Shown here one piece after another: positions 24,702 through 36,171 of a stretch of DNA of 64,000 nt; positions within the stretch are counted from its first letter, which is position 1, and the number at the start of each line of letters is the position of its first letter. The notes under the pieces were generated by a model that worked only from the letters and a program-made list of their open reading frames with translations, did no database searches and was not told the DNA's origin. The stretch spans positions 3,162,001 to 3,226,000 of the forward strand of contig NZ_LT605205.1 of assembly GCF_900095135.1 (NCBI RefSeq), given 5' to 3'. The translations under genes and the position numbers were made by a program. This DNA comes from Proteiniphilum saccharofermentans (GTDB taxonomy: Bacteria; Bacteroidota; Bacteroidia; Bacteroidales; Dysgonomonadaceae).

Positions 24702-24780
24702 TAGGCTGAAGAAACAAGAGGTGTGCTCTTGACAGGATATATCAGTAAATGAACACTTTCTGAATTTGAATAAAACAATT

Positions 24781-26298
24781 ATGACGCATCACAAGACAAG
24801 GGTACGCTTTGCCCCCAGCCCCACAGGCCCGCTGCATATCGGCGGGGTGCGCACGGCACTATACAACTATCTCTTTGCCAAACAACAGGGAGGAGATTTT
24901 ATCCTGCGAATTGAAGATACTGACTCTTCCCGGTTTGTGCCGGGTGCGGAAGAGTATATCCAGGAAACATTCGACTGGTTGGGTCTTCCGTTTGACGAAA
25001 GCCCACTGAAAGGAGGAAGCTACGGGCCCTATAAACAGTCTCAACGAAAAGAGATCTACAAACAATATGTCAATGCTTTGCTTGATAAAGGGGCAGCCTA
25101 TATCGCGTTCGACACACCGGAAGAGCTGGAAGCTAAAAGGGCGGAAATCTCTAATTTCCAGTATGACGCTTCTACCAGGGGTAAGATGCGTAACTCGCTT
25201 ACGTTATCGGAAGAAGAGACTGTATCTTTGATAAAATCGGGTACACAATATGTTGTCCGCATTAAGATAGAGCCGAACCAGGAGATTATTGTCGACGATA
25301 TGATCCGGGGCAAGGTAGTTATCAACTCTTCGGTACTTGACGACAAGGTGATCTATAAATCAGCGGATGAACTACCTACCTATCACCTGGCCAATGTGGT
25401 GGATGACCACCTGATGGAAATAACCCATGTGATTCGTGGAGAGGAATGGCTTCCTTCGGCTCCCTTGCATGTATGGCTTTACCGAAGCTTAGGATGGGAA
25501 GACGATATGCCAAAATTTGCCCACCTGCCGCTCCTGCTTAAACCGGAAGGAAACGGCAAACTGAGTAAACGCGATGGAGACCGTCTTGGCTTCCCCGTCT
25601 TTCCGCTACAATGGAATGACCCGAAAAGCGGTGAGATCTCATCAGGCTACCGCGAAAGCGGCTATCTAGCGGAAGCGGTCATCAATTTCCTTGCTTTTCT
25701 GGGATGGAATCCGGGTACGGAGCAGGAGATATTTTCCCTCAATGAGCTGGTGCAGGCATTCTCTTTCGAGAGATGCAGTAAAAACGGCGCTAAGTTCGAT
25801 GTAGAAAAAGCCAAATGGTACAACCATCAGTATATCCTCAGAATGTCAGACAGCGATCTGGCAAAACTGTTTATGCCGGTCTTAGGAGAAAAGGGGATTT
25901 CAGTCTCCAATGACATGGTGGTAAAGGCGATTAGGCTGGTAAAAGAACGCATTCATTTTATCGGTGAACTATGGGACCAATCATACTTTTTCTTCGTGGC
26001 ACCCACCGGGTATGATGAAAAAACGGTGAAAAAACGCTGGAAAGAAGAGACTCCTGCGCAGATGAAGCAATTAGCAGCATTGCTTGAAGGAACAGACGAC
26101 TTTTCTGCAAAAAACCAGGAGAAAACTGTAATGGATTGGATCCAACAGAACCAATTACATACCGGAAACGTTATGAATGCATTCCGGTTGGCCATCGTAG
26201 GTGCAGGAAAAGGGCCGCATATGTTCGACATTACCGAAGTGATTGGTAAAGAGGAAACACTCCACCGTTTGGAACAGGCAATATCTACTCTGCCGTAA
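24781..26298 (+). CDS. gltX: Glutamyl-tRNA synthetase GltX
   Basis: Charges tRNA-Glu. Starting at the ATG at 24781 it has 505 residues; the frame extends upstream only to a TTG at 24766. Class I motifs: HIGH-equivalent HIGG at 19-22 within [12 protein letters not shown], and the KMSKS-equivalent KLSKR at 260-264. The C-terminal anticodon-binding region includes [18 protein letters not shown]. The Stealth-type gene follows after 27 bp on the same strand and may be read from the same promoter. Confidence 0.97.
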
Positions 26299-26325: not shown

Positions 26326-27318
26326 ATGGATATCGATTTTGTGATTACCTGGGTTGATATGGACGACCCGCAATGGAAAGCCGATTTCACCAAATATTCG
26401 GGTAAAATCGACAACTCGAAGAATGAGGTTTCCGAAGCCCGTTTCCGTGACTATGGCTTTCTGAAATATTGGTTCAGAGGGGTAGAGAAATTTGCGCCAT
26501 GGGTGAGGAAAATACATTTCGTCACCTGTGGTCAAAAGCCGGAATGGCTCAATCCCGATCACCCCAAGCTTGCCCTGGTAAATCACAGTGACTATATCCC
26601 CACCAAGTTTTTACCCGTATTCAACTCTTCACTTATAGAGATATATCTTCATAAAATCCCTGACCTGGCTGATCGTTTTGTTTACTTCAACGATGATTTC
26701 TTTATCATCAACCATATAGGAGAGGATCGTTTTTATACCAATGGGTTACCCAATGATATTGCCGCATTCCGCTACAATTCAGGAATGGGATTATGGTCGA
26801 AATGCCTGAAGAACAATATCAGGATTATCAACGAAAGGTTTGATAAACATGAAGTGCTACAACGCGATCAGGATAAATGGTTTCATCCTTCCTACGGTAA
26901 AAAAGCTAATCTGACGCGATTACTGAGACCTTATGGAAAGTTTGTGACACTTATCACGCCGCATAATGCCCAACCCTACCTCAAGTCGACTTTTGAAGAG
27001 GTCTGGGACTATGCCGGGGACAAATTGACTGCGGTATCGACTAACCGCTTTCGGAGCCCGGAGGATTATACTCAGGAACTGTTCCGTACCTGGCAGATCT
27101 GCCGGTCTAACTTCGAACCCTACAATACCTACAAGAATACAAAAATGTTCCCGCTCGTACTACGATCCAAGCAGGCGATAAAAGCTATCTACGATCAGAG
27201 TTATAAATTGATCTGCCTCAACGACAACGCCCATATCAGGAATTATACCCGGGTGATGCAGGAGATAGAAAAGGCATTTGAAACTATCTTACCGGAAAAA
27301 TCCTGGTTTGAATTATAG
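26326..27318 (+). CDS. Stealth-family sugar-phosphate transferase
   Basis: 330 residues with the conserved blocks of Stealth proteins, which transfer hexose-1-phosphate to build phosphodiester-linked surface polysaccharides. CR1 is IDFVITWVDMDDPQW at 3-17. CR2 includes VRKIHFVTCGQKPEW, NSSLIEIYLHKIPDLAD and VYFNDDFF. CR3 includes LITPHNAQPYLKSTFEEVW. CR4 near the end includes CLNDN and FETILPEKSWFE. All four blocks appear present, so the enzyme should be active. The sugar is unknown. It lies 27 bp after gltX and 20 bp before a GT2 gene, and a paralogue is on the opposite strand at 28278-29219. Confidence 0.9.
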   Translation: MDIDFVITWVDMDDPQWKADFTKYSGKIDNSKNEVSEARFRDYGFLKYWFRGVEKFAPWVRKIHFVTCGQKPEWLNPDHPKLALVNHSDYIPTKFLPVFNSSLIEIYLHKIPDLADRFVYFNDDFFIINHIGEDRFYTNGLPNDIAAFRYNSGMGLWSKCLKNNIRIINERFDKHEVLQRDQDKWFHPSYGKKANLTRLLRPYGKFVTLITPHNAQPYLKSTFEEVWDYAGDKLTAVSTNRFRSPEDYTQELFRTWQICRSNFEPYNTYKNTKMFPLVLRSKQAIKAIYDQSYKLICLNDNAHIRNYTRVMQEIEKAFETILPEKSWFEL

Positions 27319-27338
27319 TCATATCCACACTCTATGCT

Positions 27339-28130
27339 ATGGAGAAAGAGCCATTAATTTCTGTTATCATCCCTGTCTATAACGGAGAGAAGTATATAAG
27401 GCCATGTATGGAAAACATGCTTAACCAATCGTATAAGAATCTGGAGATTATTGTCGTAAACGACGGTTCCACTGATCAGTCCGGAATTATCACACAAGAA
27501 TATCCGGTACAAGTGATCCATCTCGGGCAGAATCGGGGTTTGTCAGCAGCCAGAAATATCGGGATAGACACAGCCAAAGGTCAATATATTCATTTCATGG
27601 ACATAGATGATGCTGTTAATCCCGATTACTACAGGGAAATGGCGAAAGCTGTTAAGGAAACCGATGCTGACATAGCCTGCGGTGGTATGTGGAATGAAAG
27701 ATTCAATTATAAATCGCAACGCTTCAGGAAAACCAAAGTATATACCTCGACACACGATAAACTCAAAGCTACTTATGTCGGGAAATGGGGATATGTATGG
27801 CGATACCTTTTCAAAGTTGATTTTCTAAAAAAGCATAATTTGAGATTTGAGGAAGGACGTCTTGTGGAGGACCTTATATTCTCTTTTCATGCAGTATACT
27901 ATGCCGATAAATTAGTAGTCGTGCCCAATACTATCTATTTCTATTATAATTGGGAAAATTCCATATCAACAATCCGGGAGAAAGCACATCGTGAAAAATA
28001 TCGTCGGGATTGGCTTCATGCAAGATCCTATATTCTCAATTTTGCTGATGAACACAATTTTAAAATACCCGGAATTAACTCGGACAAGATCTCTTATATC
28101 TGGAGAAAATATATATCACGGCATTTTTGA
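27339..28130 (+). CDS. Family 2 glycosyltransferase
   Basis: 263 residues of the GT-A fold: VIIPVYNGEKYIRPC, IIVVNDGSTDQSG with the nucleotide-binding Asp, LGQNRGLSAARNIGIDTAKG, and the metal-binding MDIDDA. The acceptor-side motif near 187 is EGRLVEDLIFSF (ED pair). It is cytoplasmic with no membrane segment, and donor and acceptor sugars are unknown. It is the second gene of the plus-strand glycan pair and ends 147 bp before the tail of the opposing Stealth gene. The C-terminus is somewhat short for this subfamily. Confidence 0.9.
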   Translation: MEKEPLISVIIPVYNGEKYIRPCMENMLNQSYKNLEIIVVNDGSTDQSGIITQEYPVQVIHLGQNRGLSAARNIGIDTAKGQYIHFMDIDDAVNPDYYREMAKAVKETDADIACGGMWNERFNYKSQRFRKTKVYTSTHDKLKATYVGKWGYVWRYLFKVDFLKKHNLRFEEGRLVEDLIFSFHAVYYADKLVVVPNTIYFYYNWENSISTIREKAHREKYRRDWLHARSYILNFADEHNFKIPGINSDKISYIWRKYISRHF

Positions 28131-28277
28131 CAGGCTCTTTCCTGAAAAAGATTTACCCACCACCCTTACTCTTTTTACGCTCATCACGGGTAATGGGTTT
28201 CCATAAGTCATCTAAAATATCTCCGCTTTAGTTGCATACATATCGGATCAGGATGCAAAAGTTGAGGTGGGCAAGAA
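28131..28277. other. Convergent spacer with possible gene scars
   Basis: No complete gene. On the minus strand, about 28142-28205, a short frame reads DDLWKPITRDERKKSKGGG to a stop. On the plus strand, from about 28218, another protein-like frame reads ALVAYISDQDAKVEVGK and runs antisense into the Stealth gene. Neither has a start. They may be tails of genes lost when the cluster was rearranged. No terminator hairpin is evident. Confidence 0.3.
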
Positions 28278-29219
28278 CTACTTTTCGAAAGAGGATTTCT
28301 CCGGAAATAACGCCTCCAGAAAAGGTTTTATTCTTTCGCGGTCTATGTCTTTGGTGCGTTGACTATCATTTAAACAAAACAGATCCGGTTGGTATTTATT
28401 TATCCGGTCGGCATATTTGTGTTTATGAACAAGTATGCGGTTCGATTCTTTCCGTCCCACATATTTCATATCTCCTTTACCCACAGCCAATGAGTAATAC
28501 AAGAAAGCGGAACGGTGCATGTCTCCATACATCCTGGTATGACTTGATAATGACTTCTTTACCTGACTTTCAAAAACATGCTCTACAGCATATCTGTAAT
28601 CAAATTTCACGTAAGCATCCACATTGTGATGCGGAATACCGGAATAATACTTCCCAAAATTCTGTTCAACAAGTGAAGCACCTTCCACCACCATCGAGAT
28701 ATATTGCCCTAACCTTTTGCGAATAAGTTTTTTTAAACGGTAATGCCATTTCCCAAAAAACTTCTTCTTCAGCCGGACAATAGGAAAACCCTCTTTATTG
28801 AAGAAATAATCCGGAGAAAGTGCTTTGTTAAAGAACATGTCATCGTTTGCAAACAGGAAATGTTCAGCAAGATCGGGTATTTTATAGAGGAAATACTCGA
28901 TGACACTTGAATTGAAACAAGGCAATGCCTCTTCGGGAAGTATCTCGGTGTGATCAACGATACGAATTTTGGGATGATCTCCCTGTAACCACTCCGGGCA
29001 CTGATTATCTGTGACGATATAAATCCGCCGGATCCATGGAACATATTTTTCTACAGACCTCAATGAATATTTCAGTTCATCGTTATTGACATATCTCCCC
29101 TTATTATTCTCTTCCGAACGATCTGCCAATTTTCCTGTAAACTGTTCTTTTTTCTTTAACCACTTAGGATCATCCCCGTCTACCCAGAGATATACCAAGT
29201 CAATATCAAATGGTTGCAT
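28278..29219 (-). CDS. Second Stealth-family sugar-phosphate transferase
   Basis: 313 residues from the ATG at 29219 (MQPFDIDLVYLWVDGDDP), preferred because CR1 sits at the very N-terminus in this family; an ATG at 29240 would add 7 residues. CR1 is IDLVYLWVDGDDPKW. CR2 includes YSLRSVEKYVPWIRR, IYIVTDNQCPEW, NSSVIEYFLYKIPDLAEH and FANDDMFF. CR3 includes GIPHHNVDAYVK. The end is LEALFPEKSSFEK. It is a diverged paralogue of the 26326 gene, on the opposite strand, with its own promoter at 29263-29293. The two may make different linkages or different polymers. Confidence 0.9.
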   Translation of the reverse strand: MQPFDIDLVYLWVDGDDPKWLKKKEQFTGKLADRSEENNKGRYVNNDELKYSLRSVEKYVPWIRRIYIVTDNQCPEWLQGDHPKIRIVDHTEILPEEALPCFNSSVIEYFLYKIPDLAEHFLFANDDMFFNKALSPDYFFNKEGFPIVRLKKKFFGKWHYRLKKLIRKRLGQYISMVVEGASLVEQNFGKYYSGIPHHNVDAYVKFDYRYAVEHVFESQVKKSLSSHTRMYGDMHRSAFLYYSLAVGKGDMKYVGRKESNRILVHKHKYADRINKYQPDLFCLNDSQRTKDIDRERIKPFLEALFPEKSSFEK

Positions 29220-29262
29220 AACTTTATATTTACGGCACACTCATACCGACAGCACCAAATCA

Positions 29263-29293
29263 CAAATGTAGCTTTTTTTAATCCAACTACAAA
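29263..29293 (-). promoter_or_regulatory. Promoter of the second Stealth gene
   Basis: On the minus strand, TTTG (29293-29290) and TACATTTG (29270-29263) are 19 bp apart, an excellent match to the Bacteroidetes promoter. The spacer contains ATTAAAAAAAGC. The whole element is nearly the same as the one at 33300-33329. Confidence 0.75.
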
Positions 29294-29319
29294 TCTATAC
29301 TATTAACTTAAGCTACAAA

Positions 29320-30402
29320 TTAAAGAAAGGAATATAGTTTTTGATATTCCTTAAAATGTTTTTCATACGAAAAGGAATGGGCATATTCTTTTTGTCTCTG
29401 TGCCAGATCCTTGTCCTGATAAAACCCTTCCAGATTTTCATCGATTAACCGTTTCATTTCTTGCGGATCGAAGTTTTTCCAAAAATAGGCGAATTCCCCT
29501 CCTATCTCTTTCAGGCAGGTTTCCCGGGATGAAAAAACAGGTTTGCCAAATTGCATGGCCTCTATGACAGGAAGTCCGAAACCTTCGAATAACGAAGGGA
29601 ACAAAAAAGCTTCACAATTTGCATAAAGCCAAATCTTTTCTTCTTCAGGGATCGTTCCCAAAAGAGTAACATTATGAATCCCTTCTGTCTCAATTCGTTG
29701 TTTTATCATTTTGCCATATTCTTCCAGACTGCTATCGCCGGCTATATAAAGATGCCTGTCCGGCATTAGTTTCATCATGTTGAGCAATACGTGGAAGTTC
29801 TTTTTCTTCATGACCGTCCCTATGGTAAAGAAAAAATGTCCTTTTATTTCTCTATTGGGTTTCAAAGCAGGTTTCCGAACGATATTTTCAACACCATTAT
29901 AAATGACTTTGCATCTCTTGCCGTTCAAAACCAGATTTTTCCCCACTTCCTGTTTGGTAAATTCCGAGATGCAAACAATTTCATCAGCCCGGTTGATTTT
30001 GCGCTGCAATCGCCGGTGTTTCCTTTCCCGCTGCTCACCGGTGGCTTCATAGAGATAGTTCAGGTCATGAATCGTAAGTATGAATTTCGTCCGGGAATAA
30101 GCAGGTTTAAATCTGCTTAACTGATGGGTAGCATGCCATATATCGAATGAAGGGAACAGATAACGGCAATGTCTCAAGAACCAGCTTGAAGAACTGATAT
30201 AGCGTACTTCACGTCCAAACTTGCCGAACATCTTTCTGGGTATAAGAAGCGTCAATATATACCCGGTCTCATTTCTTTTATAATTCTCCTTGAAATAGTT
30301 CCCATAAGCTAATGCAACCTGCTTTAAACCACAGTAGGTGTTGCTCAACTCCGACAAATCGACCAAAACCTTCTTCTGTTTTCTCTTGTTTCTTCTCCAC
30401 AT
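29320..30402 (-). CDS. Family 4 glycosyltransferase
   Basis: 360 residues of the GT-B fold. N-terminal KKVLVDLSELSNTYCGLKQVA is typical of RfaB/mannosyltransferase-like proteins that begin with an acceptor-binding domain. Mid-protein: HDLNYLYEATGEQR and the VCISEFTKQEVGK linker. The donor-binding C-terminal domain has FFTIGTVMKKKNFHVLL, then FLFPSLFEGFGLPVIEAM with the EX7E-type signature (E...GLPVIEA). The N-terminus is strongly basic (MWRRNKRKQKK). It begins 3 bp after the stop of the upstream GT4 gene (30406), so these two are one operon. Confidence 0.9.
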   Translation of the reverse strand: MWRRNKRKQKKVLVDLSELSNTYCGLKQVALAYGNYFKENYKRNETGYILTLLIPRKMFGKFGREVRYISSSSWFLRHCRYLFPSFDIWHATHQLSRFKPAYSRTKFILTIHDLNYLYEATGEQRERKHRRLQRKINRADEIVCISEFTKQEVGKNLVLNGKRCKVIYNGVENIVRKPALKPNREIKGHFFFTIGTVMKKKNFHVLLNMMKLMPDRHLYIAGDSSLEEYGKMIKQRIETEGIHNVTLLGTIPEEEKIWLYANCEAFLFPSLFEGFGLPVIEAMQFGKPVFSSRETCLKEIGGEFAYFWKNFDPQEMKRLIDENLEGFYQDKDLAQRQKEYAHSFSYEKHFKEYQKLYSFL

Positions 30403-30405
30403 ATC

Positions 30406-31650
30406 TTACGCCCCCACATAGTCAATTGCAATATCAAACTTTTCAATGATACGTTCCCATCGATAATTTTTTTCGGCGTACTGCATGCCATTTCGTGCAA
30501 TAACCTGCTTGCCGTTATCGGAAAGATTCAGTATCTTATCAACCTGTACGCTAAAATCTTTCACGTCATAATAGAGGAACCCAGCCTGGCTCTTCTCTAT
30601 GTGTCGCTTCAACACATCGCAATAACCATTCGCCAAAACCGGTTTACCAAAGGACATTGCTTCCAGGGTAACCATCGACAGGCTTTCGTGTCGTGAAGAG
30701 ATAATTAAACCCGCACAATGCTGAAGGTATAACAGTTTTTCCTCCTCTCCGATAAATCCGGTAAAAATAATATTATCATCCTTCACAAAGGTTTTCAGAT
30801 GGTTCTTCCCAATCATTACCAGTTTTATATTTCTATGTTGCGATCTATTCATCATAGAAAAATAGTTCATCAATTCCAAACACCCTTTACCAACATCTAT
30901 ACGTCCGATATACACAAAATAAGGAAAACTGATTGGGGGTTCACTGTTTTCATCCAATACAGGCAGATCAAAACCGACACCTGCAAGGTCAGACCTGATT
31001 GTTCGCGTAACGGGATGAGCTGATTCAAGCAGGAGCCTCTCACTTTCTGTGTTATACATGATGAATCCCGGTAGAGAGAACATCTTTTCGAAGCCTGAAA
31101 GATAAAGCATCGGCTCATCATGTGCCAATGGGATAAGAATACTTTTGCCGGATGTGTGTTGCAACCCGAAATAAGTAGGATAGAACGGGTAATTAAAATA
31201 AATAAATGCCTTATACTGATTCTTCTCCTGTTCCAGATATGTTATCATTTCTTTACAAACAGGACCATGATTCACAATCCAACGATCAAAGACCCGGCCA
31301 TGATTTTTTTTTCTTCTGTACCATATACGCCTAATAGAAAGGGTAATGAAATTATTTATCGTATATCCTCTATGGTAATACTTCCAGTTTCCACGGAGAT
31401 AACGTCCTAACCGGCGGGTCTTTTTACGGTTTGCACCTTCATCTTTAAACCGCAATACCCGTACACCATTCATCATCTCCTCGCCTGCAGGATAATGATT
31501 ATCCCATGCAGGATAAGCCAAAGAGCAGGAGGTCAGGACATCCACGTCATACTTCTCTTTCAAACGTTCTGCCAGCAACCGTGCATGCACTTCTGCTCCT
31601 CCGTTGATCTCTCTACCATATCGCTGTACGATTATTGCTATTTTATCCAT
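30406..31650 (-). CDS. Family 4 glycosyltransferase
   Basis: 414 residues from the ATG at 31650 (MDKIAIIVQRYGREING). The in-frame ATG at 31677 would add nine residues in front of the first beta strand. N-terminal donor-independent half: GGAEVHARLLAERLKEKYD. C-terminal half: YFVYIGRIDVGKGCLELM and HESLSMVTLEAMSFGKPVL with the EX7E glutamates. A hydrophilic basic region at about 95-125 is unusual. It lies 73 bp after the DUF5672-GT2 fusion and 3 bp before the next GT4. Donor and acceptor are unknown. Confidence 0.9.
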   Translation of the reverse strand: MDKIAIIVQRYGREINGGAEVHARLLAERLKEKYDVDVLTSCSLAYPAWDNHYPAGEEMMNGVRVLRFKDEGANRKKTRRLGRYLRGNWKYYHRGYTINNFITLSIRRIWYRRKKNHGRVFDRWIVNHGPVCKEMITYLEQEKNQYKAFIYFNYPFYPTYFGLQHTSGKSILIPLAHDEPMLYLSGFEKMFSLPGFIMYNTESERLLLESAHPVTRTIRSDLAGVGFDLPVLDENSEPPISFPYFVYIGRIDVGKGCLELMNYFSMMNRSQHRNIKLVMIGKNHLKTFVKDDNIIFTGFIGEEEKLLYLQHCAGLIISSRHESLSMVTLEAMSFGKPVLANGYCDVLKRHIEKSQAGFLYYDVKDFSVQVDKILNLSDNGKQVIARNGMQYAEKNYRWERIIEKFDIAIDYVGA

Positions 31651-31723
31651 AATATGTTTGCGGCTCATATAATCCACCTGTCAGTTTCAATCACTTGATT
31701 ATCTGGATGAAATATTATCGAAC

Positions 31724-33238
31724 TTATTTTTTCCTCAATTTATGTTTTATAATCCTGAAATTATACCGGAAACGCACTACAATCCCAAAATTTTCCATGA
31801 TAAGTTTTCTTTTATCCCGCAGGAATGCTTTATCCTCACCATATGACGATACTCCCGTATCATTAAAGTAGGCTATAATGTAATCCCGATATTCAAACTC
31901 ATAAGATTTGTCGCGATGCAATTGCATATTAAGAGCATAATCTGCCGATACTTTATATTCGGTATTGTATCTATATTTTTTAAAAACACTTGCCGGATAA
32001 ATAATCGCCTGATGAAAAATACCTCCTTTAGCCTGTTCGTAATCCGAAACAAAACCTCTTGATTTAATTCCTTTCCATAAAACATTGGCATAATAAATCT
32101 TATGCTGGTCTTTTAATTCGTTCTCCACAAAGGAAGAGAAATCGGGCAAGAGTCTGTCGTCAGCACCAATGAAATAAATCCACTTACCACGAACGTGATC
32201 CAGCGCTTTATTCATAGCATCATATATTCCCTTATCGGGTTCACTTTTCCAGAATGTTATCCTGTCTCCATACTTTTCAAGTATATCCTGAGTTCCGTCG
32301 GTACTGTTTCCGTCAATTATGATCAGTTCGATGTCGTTTACACACCGTTGTTCGATAATACTATCGATACACCCAGATATGCAGGAAGAGGCATTGTATA
32401 CAACGCAAATAATACTGATAAACGGTTGTCTTTTCATACGGATCTGAACGAATGGGATATGATCTTTCCAGAATTCAGGCTCATAGACGAATGGCGCATG
32501 ACACCCAAACGGCAGCTGCTTATGCATTAGGTTATATGCAAACGAAGGGTGCAATTCTGTGGAAAAATACATAGCTTCGCGCCAGTCCGGCTTATTGAAC
32601 TTTTTATATAACCGGCGACCTTCAAAGCTCCAGAAAATATCTTCATTGTACAATGTGCCGGATACCTGTTTTTCCAAATAGGTATTCAAAATCATTTGCA
32701 CTTTGGCAGATTCAAGTATTTTTATGAAGGTACCGATTTTGCGCAACGACAGACCTCCGTTCCCGATATTATTATAAAGCTTCACCGATCTTCTTTTAGA
32801 GTCCGAGTATATCCAAGGGCATACGGCAAGCACAAATGCATAAAGTTCTGCTTTTTTAATTTTACGGGGTGCAAGCCACGGCGCCCCGATATAGTCATAG
32901 TTTTTACTGCACCAGTATTGAAGATCGGGTTTAAACAAAAACGCATCCGTCTGGTGTATCAACATATATTTGTAACCGCTGAACCGTCTATAAAAATCCA
33001 CATCAAGCATCAGTCGGTTATATCCCGAAATACTGGTAAAGAAATAATCCGGAAACCGTTCAACAGGTATATCGGCAAAACCGGAAAAACTCTCATCGAT
33101 CACAAAATTCTCAGGCATGACAAAAACCTTGTCTATGCCCTGTGTCATCTCTATTGCCTTACTTATTACTGTTCTATCATTAACCTCTAACGATTTATAA
33201 ATCGGGAAAAGGACTATACATTCTTTTTTAACGGGCAT
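31724..33238 (-). CDS. DUF5672-GT2 two-domain glycosyltransferase
   Basis: 504 residues in two parts. Residues 1-262 match DUF5672, a putative glycosyltransferase domain often found alone in glycan clusters (CIVLFPIYKSLEVND, MLIHQTDAFLF, YDYIGAPWLAP, NNIGNGGLSLRK, NEDIFWSF). Residues 270-504 are a GT-A GT2 domain (FISIICVVYNASSCISGC, IIIDGNSTDGTQDILEK, SEPDKGIYDAMNKAL, FIGADDRLLP), with the LSE-like SEPDKGIYDAMN signature of sugar transferases in capsule loci. It is the first gene of the minus-strand glycan operon. The two domains could add successive sugars, which is inference. Confidence 0.88.
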   Translation of the reverse strand: MPVKKECIVLFPIYKSLEVNDRTVISKAIEMTQGIDKVFVMPENFVIDESFSGFADIPVERFPDYFFTSISGYNRLMLDVDFYRRFSGYKYMLIHQTDAFLFKPDLQYWCSKNYDYIGAPWLAPRKIKKAELYAFVLAVCPWIYSDSKRRSVKLYNNIGNGGLSLRKIGTFIKILESAKVQMILNTYLEKQVSGTLYNEDIFWSFEGRRLYKKFNKPDWREAMYFSTELHPSFAYNLMHKQLPFGCHAPFVYEPEFWKDHIPFVQIRMKRQPFISIICVVYNASSCISGCIDSIIEQRCVNDIELIIIDGNSTDGTQDILEKYGDRITFWKSEPDKGIYDAMNKALDHVRGKWIYFIGADDRLLPDFSSFVENELKDQHKIYYANVLWKGIKSRGFVSDYEQAKGGIFHQAIIYPASVFKKYRYNTEYKVSADYALNMQLHRDKSYEFEYRDYIIAYFNDTGVSSYGEDKAFLRDKRKLIMENFGIVVRFRYNFRIIKHKLRKK

Positions 33239-33513: not shown

Positions 33514-35574
33514 ATGCAAACGAAAAAAAAGAGAATAAGAATCAAGACAAAAATATTCGTCCCGTTGGTCTTTATTATTGCCGTACTTTTCACTACCTAT
33601 TTTTTCCCCCGTCAGGGAAGTTTTAAATATAATTTCAACGAAGGCAGGCCATGGCAATACGGACTGCTCACTGCCCCGTTCGATTTTCCTGTATACAAAC
33701 CGGCAGCCCAACTGAAAGCAGAACAGGATAGTATCCTGGAATATTATGAGCCTTATTTTGTGGTTGATGAGGAGATCCAGAAGAGTGCTCTCGCCGAATT
33801 TGACGCGGATGCAAACCTGAAAGCCAGGCTAGCCGAACTTGCACCCGAATATAAACTCTATGTCCGAAACAAATTAAATGAGGTATTTGATAACGGCATT
33901 ATGCGTTCGGAAGATTATGATCGTATCTACCAATCACATACGCAGGCATTACGGTTAAAAAAGGGTAATGTGGCAGAGTCCAGAAAAGTGGAAACTTTTT
34001 TTACTATTCGTTCCGCTTATGAGAAGGTACTGAATGATGTCCCCTCCAGTATTGATGCCGATATCCTCAAAGCTGCCAATATCAATGAATATATCCACGA
34101 AAACGTATTATATGATGCAATTACATCAGAGAAGGCCCAGAATGAATTTATTCAACAGGTGGATATAAGCCACGGCATGGTACAAAGAGGGCAACGTATC
34201 ATTGATCAGGGTGAGATTGTCGGTCCACAGACATATAATATACTCTCGTCCCTGAAGCGGGTAACCGAGGAACAAAGCGGCGGCACTACCAGAAACAACT
34301 GGATGCTACTGGGGCAGTTCATGCTCATATTGTTCATGTTTGGTTCATTCTATACTTACCTGCTCTATTTCCGACCGGCAGAATACCGCAACCGGAAACA
34401 TGTGGTTTTTATGGTGTTGCTGATAGCTTTCTTTGTATTACTTACAGCTATTACCGTCAGGTTCGAACTTTTCAGCATTTACATCGTCCCTTACGCCATC
34501 GTCACCATCCTTATCCGTACTTTCATAGACTCACGTACGGCATTGTTTGCCAGTCTCACTACCATCATTATGAGTTCACTTATGGTACCGTTTCCTTTCG
34601 AATTCATCGTCATCCAGATCGCGGTAGCCATGGTATCCATATTTATGTTGAAAGAGTTGTCGGAACGTTCGCAACTAATCAAAAGTTCTTTCTTTATCCT
34701 GCTCACCTACATTGTGGTGTATACAGGTCTTGAACTGTATCAGGAAGGCAATGTGAATGAAATCAACTGGGTGGTACTGGTCTATTTCCTTATCAACTTT
34801 ATCTTTATCATGTTCTCCTATTCACTGGTTTATCTGGTGGAAAGATCCTTCGGATTTATTTCCGGTGTCTCATTAGTAGAACTTTCCAATATTAATAAAC
34901 CACTGCTGAAAGAACTTTCTGAAAAAGCGCCGGGCACGTTCCAGCACTCATTACAAGTATCCAACCTGGCCATGGCGGCAGCGGCAAAATTGGGAGCAAA
35001 TGCCTCCCTGATAAGGACAGGGGCGTTATATCACGACATTGGGAAAATGGCTAATCCTGCTTTTTTCACGGAAAATCAGGCACCGGGCATGAATCCGCAT
35101 GCAGGACTCCCCTACGAGGAAAGCGCACGTATTATAATCAATCATGTGAAAGACGGGCTGAAGATTGCACAGAAACATAATGTCCCTCAGCAGATCATCG
35201 ATTTCATCGAGACCCATCACGGGACAAGTATGCCTAAGTTTTTTTACATCTCCTGGAAAAATGCCAATCCCGGCAAAGAAACCAATGAGGCAGATTTCCG
35301 CTACCCGGGTCCCAATCCGTTCTCGAAAGAGACTGCCATTATGATGATGGCCGATGCGGTGGAAGCCTCGTCGCGCAGCCTTCCCGAATATACGGAAGAG
35401 TCACTTCGTAATCTGGTCGACAAAATTATCGACGCCCAAGTGGCTGAGGGTTATTTCAAATCTGCTCCTATCACTTTCAAGGATATACAGACAGTGAAAG
35501 ATGTTTTTGTAGAAAAACTAGCCACGATGTACCATTCACGTATTGCCTATCCTGAATTAAAACGGCCGCAATAA
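33514..35574 (+). CDS. PgpH/YqfF-type 7TM-HD phosphodiesterase (c-di-AMP)
   Basis: 686 residues. N-terminal membrane segment (TKIFVPLVFIIAVLFTTYF), then an extracytoplasmic 7TMR-HDED domain to about 250. Seven or so membrane segments follow between about 265 and 450. The C-terminal HD domain has His478 (QHSLQVSN), the HD pair at 507-508 (YHDIGK), ETHHGTS and DAVEASSR. This layout is that of PgpH enzymes, which hydrolyse c-di-AMP. Substrate is inferred from the family. It has its own promoter and ends 68 bp before the tail of the toxin gene. Confidence 0.93.
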   Translation: MQTKKKRIRIKTKIFVPLVFIIAVLFTTYFFPRQGSFKYNFNEGRPWQYGLLTAPFDFPVYKPAAQLKAEQDSILEYYEPYFVVDEEIQKSALAEFDADANLKARLAELAPEYKLYVRNKLNEVFDNGIMRSEDYDRIYQSHTQALRLKKGNVAESRKVETFFTIRSAYEKVLNDVPSSIDADILKAANINEYIHENVLYDAITSEKAQNEFIQQVDISHGMVQRGQRIIDQGEIVGPQTYNILSSLKRVTEEQSGGTTRNNWMLLGQFMLILFMFGSFYTYLLYFRPAEYRNRKHVVFMVLLIAFFVLLTAITVRFELFSIYIVPYAIVTILIRTFIDSRTALFASLTTIIMSSLMVPFPFEFIVIQIAVAMVSIFMLKELSERSQLIKSSFFILLTYIVVYTGLELYQEGNVNEINWVVLVYFLINFIFIMFSYSLVYLVERSFGFISGVSLVELSNINKPLLKELSEKAPGTFQHSLQVSNLAMAAAAKLGANASLIRTGALYHDIGKMANPAFFTENQAPGMNPHAGLPYEESARIIINHVKDGLKIAQKHNVPQQIIDFIETHHGTSMPKFFYISWKNANPGKETNEADFRYPGPNPFSKETAIMMMADAVEASSRSLPEYTEESLRNLVDKIIDAQVAEGYFKSAPITFKDIQTVKDVFVEKLATMYHSRIAYPELKRPQ

Positions 35575-35642: not shown

Positions 35643-35945
35643 TCAACGCATTTTTCTTTTTCTCGGATTTTGCCTGTTTGAGAAAAAAGAAAGTATTTCT
35701 ACGGTATCCTGTTTAATCCTGTAATAAAGTGTGTTATATTTCAAAACTACCGCCCTCCGAATATCTTTTTTTTCAGATTTAGGATATAATTTAGGATTAC
35801 GGGCAATTACTTCGGTAGTAGACTCGATTCTTTGTACAAGTCTTTTTATCTCTTTCTCAGAGAAATTTTTTTCGAGATACCGGATGGTTTGTCCCAGTTC
35901 ATTCAAAGCATGTTTCGTCCAACGGATCTTATAACCACTTTTCAT
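35643..35945 (-). CDS. ParE/RelE-type toxin
   Basis: 100 residues. N-terminal YKIRWTKHALNELGQTIRYLE has the ParE-fold start; the C-terminal strand reads YNTLYYRIKQDTVEILSFF and NRQNPRK, as in RelE/ParE-superfamily toxins. It begins 17 bp inside the end of the antitoxin frame, a usual coupled arrangement. ParE-type members poison gyrase and RelE-type members cut mRNA; I cannot tell which from this sequence. Confidence 0.85.
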   Translation of the reverse strand: MKSGYKIRWTKHALNELGQTIRYLEKNFSEKEIKRLVQRIESTTEVIARNPKLYPKSEKKDIRRAVVLKYNTLYYRIKQDTVEILSFFSNRQNPRKRKMR

Positions 35946-36171
35946 AGAGTTTTCGGACTTCCGAGTGCTGTACTACATTTCCATTGTCGGCATCAATTAT
36001 CCCCTTCTCAATAGATTCTTTCTCTTCCACAGAGATAGAATTCCACCAATCTTCTGTTTCTTCCTCTCTGATTTTTTTAATTCTTTCGATAACAGAAAAA
36101 TCATCAACGGTTGAGATCCATTGGATCAATGCAAGCTTCTCATCCAACATTTCGATATCAGTTGTCATCAT
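35929..36171 (-). CDS. Antitoxin of the ParE/RelE module
   Basis: 80 residues, acidic and helical, as expected of a type II antitoxin. The C-terminus ends VVQHSEVRKLYEKWL, a tail common in antitoxins paired with ParE-like toxins. No clear DNA-binding domain is visible in the first 40 residues. MM at the start leaves 36168 as an alternative. It precedes and overlaps the toxin by 17 bp, and the pair sits alone between the pgpH-like gene and guaA. Confidence 0.8.
   Translation of the reverse strand: MMTTDIEMLDEKLALIQWISTVDDFSVIERIKKIREEETEDWWNSISVEEKESIEKGIIDADNGNVVQHSEVRKLYEKWL

Follow-up and report, generated by a model that had tools for sequence, protein, structure and literature searches.

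The gene directly downstream of gltX in the analysed stretch of Proteiniphilum saccharofermentans DNA (contig NZ_LT605205.1; 64,000 nt, hereafter the window) encodes a predicted Stealth sugar-1-phosphate transferase of 330 aa, ST1 (26326–27318, plus strand), which occupies the place of waaA at the junction between gltX and an HDIG/7TM gene. Kdo (3-deoxy-D-manno-octulosonic acid) is the hallmark sugar joining lipid A to the core of lipopolysaccharide (LPS), and WaaA is the Kdo transferase. With moderate confidence, we read the locus as one for LPS core assembly, in which ST1 displaced WaaA and would place a sugar-1-phosphate at or close to lipid A, giving a Kdo-independent core. The genome, a single contig of 4,414,963 bases, gave no match to PF04413 (waaA) and none above the cut-off for kdsA or kdsB; lpxC and lpxK are present.

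The replacement is seen within the genus. Among 39 genomes, 30 carry ST1 and no waaA, eight carry waaA and no Stealth gene, and one has neither; the 24 genomes of good quality divide into 19, five and zero, respectively. The order gltX-waaA-HDIG is found in all eight waaA members (gltX of G056 is truncated at the end of its contig). ST1 lies directly 3′ of gltX in 26 of the 30 ST1 genomes; the remaining four sit on contigs that stop short of gltX and have HDIG on the other side of ST1. The junction measures 1267–1509 bp in seven waaA members and 2159–10970 bp in 18 ST1 members. At its smallest it contains only ST1 and a second Stealth gene, ST2. The latter was rejected as an essential part of the system, since three genomes (G071, G036, G037) carry ST1 as their only Stealth gene. 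In the window, the left flank is gltX (24766–26298, plus strand; NCBIfam TIGR00464, above cut-off), which adjoins waaA in the waaA-bearing relatives, and the right flank is the pgpH-type HDIG/7TM gene (33514–35574, plus strand; Pfam PF07698 and PF01966), which also flanks the site in the waaA-bearing genus members. WaaA/KdtA (PF04413) and ST1 share the position after gltX and, presumably, the step after lipid A, but they are not homologous, and the predicted chemistry of ST1 differs and involves no Kdo.

In a family sample of 101 genomes, profile searches found Stealth in 50, waaA in 47, lpxC in 96, kdsB in 49, lpxK in 96 and kdsA in 51 (kdsB and kdsA above cut-off). Proteins of the fetched loci that share 68% identity or more with ST1 of the window were taken as ST1 orthologues; the open reading frames (ORFs) of these loci came from a simple caller that may lengthen N-termini and misses truncated genes. 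None of the 40 ST1 genomes has waaA, versus 47 of the 61 others (Fisher p 2e-16, with no correction for relatedness). Likewise, kdsB was found in 0/40 versus 49/61 and kdsA in 1/40 versus 50/61. Both lpxC and lpxK were present in 39 of the 40, and both are missing in G073, which is 73% complete. The ST1 genomes keep lipid A synthesis but not the Kdo branch. As a control, eight of ten family genomes bearing only other Stealth proteins (30–43% identical) keep waaA, so the exclusion is specific to ST1.

Fourteen family genomes have neither ST1 nor waaA, and all except G047 are less than 90% complete. Five of the fourteen have kdsB and one further has kdsA, which makes an assembly gap likely in those six. 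Among the waaA genomes, kdsB above cut-off is missing from G019, G096 and G100, and kdsA from G027 and G100; the last has a divergent PF04413 match and was counted as waaA-positive. A second waaA locus in G083, encoding a GltX and a WaaA identical to the G053 proteins, is probably contamination. The ST1 genome with kdsA, G055 (no waaA or kdsB above cut-off), carries a kdsA-like ORF of 250 aa followed by a KpsF/GutQ-like ORF of 318 aa, named by eye (L212, 7141–8853), in a neighbourhood that differs from that of the G053 kdsA. A flagged TGA that would have made this kdsA a relic was rejected, as the matched stretch ends at the ORF's own stop; we read the two ORFs as a putative foreign pair. In the g4 genomes (L139–L142), which keep waaA, a Stealth protein of 38–41% identity is encoded within ~5–15 kb of gltX-waaA; this may be a transitional arrangement or a glycan gene that has nothing to do with the exchange.

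Because gltX is linked to the site, we used a species tree from LpxD, LpxC and LpxA, encoded ~140 kb from the locus in this genome, instead of the gltX tree (G073, with no LpxC match, was left out). On the LpxD/C/A tree, the ST1 label changes eight times (seven forced by well-supported branches) and waaA seven times (six forced); the gltX tree gives nine changes of the ST1 label, six of them forced. The label is hardly more clustered on the LpxD/C/A tree than shuffled labels, 51 of 500 of which scored as low. In the six independent pairs on this tree that differ in waaA, with G066 (neither state) left out, ST1 is opposite in 6/6, while kdsB tracks waaA in 6/6 and kdsA in five to six. The WaaA tree recovers groupings of the Lpx tree (G054/G056/G059 and G052/G082/G083), which fits vertical descent of waaA with repeated loss. 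We infer that the exchange ran in the direction of repeated waaA loss, a direction that was not counted on the tree.

Both Stealth proteins of the window, ST1 and ST2 (28278–29219, minus strand; start codon candidates ATG 29219 or GTG 29240), exceed the Pfam cut-offs for Stealth CR1 and CR2 (ST1, CR2 E 1.4e-41 and CR1 6.3e-11; ST2, CR2 E 1.2e-45). ST2 also exceeds the cut-off for CR4 (score 30.6), with no CR3 match at E ≤ 0.001. ST1 scores 23.0 for CR3 (cut-off 24.2) and 23.3 for CR4 (cut-off 27.4), and at E ≤ 0.001 it matched no Pfam family other than Stealth. The two proteins are 34% identical. In an alignment of 54 diverse sequences, made of 52 of 60 non-redundant Stealth sequences plus the two window proteins, R39, E105, D124, H213 and R243 (ST1 numbering) are invariant, and N299 is conserved in at least 90%. 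The six ST1 residues match the catalytic set of human GNPT (R322, E389, D408, H956, R986 and N1151, as named in the accessible part of PMC11418123), counted by eye in a profile alignment to solved structures. The AlphaFold2 model of ST1 has a mean pLDDT of 93.4 and a pTM of 0.92, and its closest matches are mycobacterial CpsY (E 1.1e-22) and GNPT; an earlier model from a narrow alignment (pLDDT 39.9) was discarded. Both ST1 and ST2 should be active sugar-1-phosphate transferases. Since the catalytic residues are intact in two Stealth proteins, a phosphodiester-containing surface glycan is likely, and to this extent the phosphate-containing surface polymer proposed in an earlier annotation of the window, made from its letters and ORFs (the sequence-only reading), stands.

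In motifs, catalytic residues and predicted fold, ST1 and ST2 resemble the Stealth hexose-1-phosphate transferases (PF11380/PF17101–17103), such as GNPT, mycobacterial CpsY, and WfgC and 20D of O-antigen loci. The bacterial members known so far are linked, in the accessible parts of two reports, to capsules, which Stealth enzymes polymerise via phosphodiester bonds (PMC5974469), or to O-antigens, a phosphate linkage in one LPS O-antigen being credited to a Stealth protein (PMC3989065). ST1 instead sits at the waaA position, and the two genes are mutually exclusive.

In the reaction that we propose, ST1 would take a UDP-sugar and, with His213 as the base, move the sugar-1-phosphate onto lipid A, with release of UMP. 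The acceptor would most likely be the 6′-hydroxyl of lipid A, the usual site of Kdo. The first core residue would then be phosphodiester-linked, keeping negative charge close to the membrane, as the Kdo carboxylate would. In starting the core on lipid A, ST1 would remove the need for Kdo; the variable GT2, GT4 and DUF5672-GT2 enzymes, together with ST2 in the genomes that have it, would extend the core, and the finished product would leave the cell via the normal LPS export path. An LPS core is assembled on lipid A and leaves through the LPS machinery, so the missing capsule exporter would be expected for such a product. The variable glycosyltransferase content of the locus, by analogy, resembles that of variable LPS cores.

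Kdo-less LPS has been reported for cyanobacteria, likewise with lipid A genes and no Kdo transferase. According to the accessible part of that report (PMC3087551), cyanobacterial lipid A genes are limited to lpxA, lpxC, lpxD and lpxB and the LPS carries no phosphate, whereas here lpxK is kept and a phosphotransferase stands in the waaA position. Bacteroides is said, in the accessible part of PMC5850320, to have homologues of every Raetz-pathway gene, with one secondary acyltransferase only. We found no description of a Stealth protein replacing waaA in the open-licence PMC literature, and the accessible parts of PMC7689251, PMC8065654 and PMC3342949 hold nothing on waaA replacement. If our reading is correct, the Kdo linker between lipid A and core can be swapped, and part of the Bacteroidota is independent of Kdo synthesis; LPS extraction, assay and perhaps host sensing would change in such Bacteroidota.

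ST1 is also found beyond the family. In an order-level sample of 393 genomes, it occurs at 68% identity or more in four (G000, G092, G291, G387), none of which has waaA. G291 shows the order HDIG, gltX, lipid A acyltransferase (PF03279), ST1, and G377 of the same family has gltX-waaA. In 20 hand-picked waaA loci from other Bacteroidales families, gltX directly adjoins waaA in eight, is one gene off in two and was not seen in ten. Some Bacteroidales genomes that are 98–100% complete (e.g. G118, G129, G137, G225, G287) gave no match to waaA and, at E ≤ 1e-30, none to ST1. Among the order genomes with only weaker Stealth matches (34–43%), waaA is missing in 4/11 (G212, G233, G339, G369), which exceeds the base rate of waaA loss, and other Stealth lineages might therefore also be involved.

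A scan of named genomes covered the best 80 of at least 510 ST1 relatives, of which L257, L267 and L271 were dropped for want of a clean ST1 ORF, leaving 77 loci. Immediately 5′ of ST1 and in the same orientation, 25 loci have an LpxL homologue (a BLAST match to the G291 protein), 13 have gltX and 17 have another gene; the upstream neighbour lies on the other strand in 19 and is absent at a contig edge in three. Pfam confirmed four members of this lipid A acyltransferase family. In 14 of these 25 loci gltX directly precedes LpxL, including those of Bacteroides caecigallinarum ET12 (L263) and Mediterranea sp. An20 (L289). Within the 77 loci, as distinct from the whole genomes, the sole waaA-like match is a weak one (25% identity) at the locus edge in Hylemonella L229. 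It may be, and we propose this tentatively, that a phosphodiester-linked inner core made by ST1 replaces Kdo as a widespread LPS architecture of Bacteroidota, including gut Bacteroides relatives, with the two systems repeatedly swapped at one site and some lineages providing ST1 with a lipid A acyltransferase of its own (gltX-lpxL-ST1). Relatives of ST1 at 68–78% identity also occur outside Bacteroidota, in Hylemonella gracilis (L229, 9941–10999) and in metagenome-assembled genomes of Chitinispirillales (L274, L291, L296), which suggests contamination or a transfer across phyla. Two or three ST2-type genes in a row face ST1 in L231 (11013–14298), L275 (11908–13814), L266 (11896–15563) and L134, which points to successive duplications of the second Stealth enzyme.

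Several observations weigh against ST1 as the enzyme that starts a Kdo-independent core. Among the order genomes, waaA is missing not only from the four with ST1 but also from 33 of the 389 without it (4/4 versus 33/389; Fisher p 7e-5), so Kdo loss does not need ST1. In groups g9 and g5, nothing separates gltX from HDIG, and ST1 maps to another place; in g12, the two genes are separated by others and ST1 is again not at gltX. G047, which is 97% complete, has neither Stealth nor waaA, and lpxK is missing as well. The six pairs give p 0.031 at best, the minimum for n = 6. Finally, in 39 of the 77 surveyed loci ST1 is not immediately preceded on its strand by gltX or lpxL (three of them because of a contig end), and ST1 relatives may thus serve other glycans. 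The ST1-less losses, the position of ST1 elsewhere in g9, g12 and g5, and the gene content of the junction, which varies between relatives, would also suit a different explanation, namely that Kdo and core were simply lost, leaving lipid A (nearly) bare, while ST1 and ST2 make a surface phosphoglycan of another kind and the gltX-HDIG junction is a mere recombination site at which such genes insert. We give this a minor but real chance. It does not account for the strict one-for-one exchange in six independent pairs, for minimal loci that hold ST1 and ST2 only, for the adjacency of lpxL and ST1, or for the retention of waaA beside other Stealth proteins in the control genomes.

ST1 might also act in LPS synthesis without being the first core transferase, decorating lipid A (e.g. 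on a phosphate) or adding a later phosphodiester while another glycosyltransferase starts the Kdo-less core. The O-antigen linkage credited to a Stealth protein, in the part of PMC3989065 cited above, is a precedent, and several glycosyltransferases accompany ST1 at this locus. We nevertheless consider this role improbable, as ST1 stands in place of waaA and the minimal gltX-HDIG loci have no glycosyltransferase besides ST1 and ST2, although a starter enzyme could be encoded elsewhere. The sequence-only reading itself, an acquired cluster for a stand-alone, capsule-like, phosphate-containing polymer unconnected with Kdo loss, appears very unlikely. The phosphodiester polymerisation of capsules by Stealth enzymes elsewhere (PMC5974469, as above) and the five AT-rich genes described below are in its favour; against it stand the site conserved in the genus, the lack of export genes among the window proteins scanned, the ordinary third-position GC of ST1 and the mutual exclusion of ST1 and waaA. 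A stand-alone, recently acquired island is not supported, because the ST1 site is conserved, minimal loci hold ST1 and ST2 only, the locus replaces waaA, and kdsA and kdsB were not found in the genome.

The layout of the locus was examined by Pfam profile searches and base composition, and all its genes were confirmed where the sequence-only reading had placed them, with two diverged Stealth paralogues on opposite strands flanking a GT2 gene, followed by two GT4 genes and a DUF5672-GT2 gene. They form two convergent groups between gltX and HDIG/7TM. On the plus strand, ST1 is followed by an accessory GT2 glycosyltransferase (27339–28130; PF00535), which is not in the minimal loci. On the minus strand, ST2, convergent with ST1, is joined by three accessory genes: GT4a (29320–30402; PF00534), which recurs adjoining ST2 in other junctions; GT4b (30406–31677; PF00534), also present in the G051, G060, G063 and G088 loci; and a DUF5672-GT2 fusion (31724–33238; PF18922 and PF00535). 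Searches of the genome with ST1 and with PF11380 each matched ST1 and ST2 only.

The AT-richness ascribed to the cluster holds for the five accessory genes, whose GC content (0.383–0.410) and GC at third codon positions (GC3; 0.390–0.446) lie below those of 33 other window ORFs (0.463 ± 0.026 and 0.504 ± 0.037). It does not extend to ST1, with a GC of 0.433 and a GC3 of 0.520 that is ordinary for the window. Recent acquisition of the whole cluster was rejected for ST1 by this GC3 and by its conserved site; the accessory glycosyltransferases, which vary among the junctions of relatives, may have been acquired recently. No Wzx, Wzy or ABC exporter was found among 28 Pfam-scanned window proteins or by a hydrophobicity count of window ORFs of at least 120 aa, in agreement with the sequence-only reading. 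By this crude count, eight or more hydrophobic segments were present only in a MATE protein, a nucleoside/MFS (major facilitator superfamily) symporter and a CAAX-protease-like protein.

Beyond the right flank, a gene for a ParE-type toxin (PF05016) lies on the minus strand between the HDIG gene and guaA (window 35643–36171). The small ORF upstream of it (35929–36171), which has no Pfam match, may encode the antitoxin.

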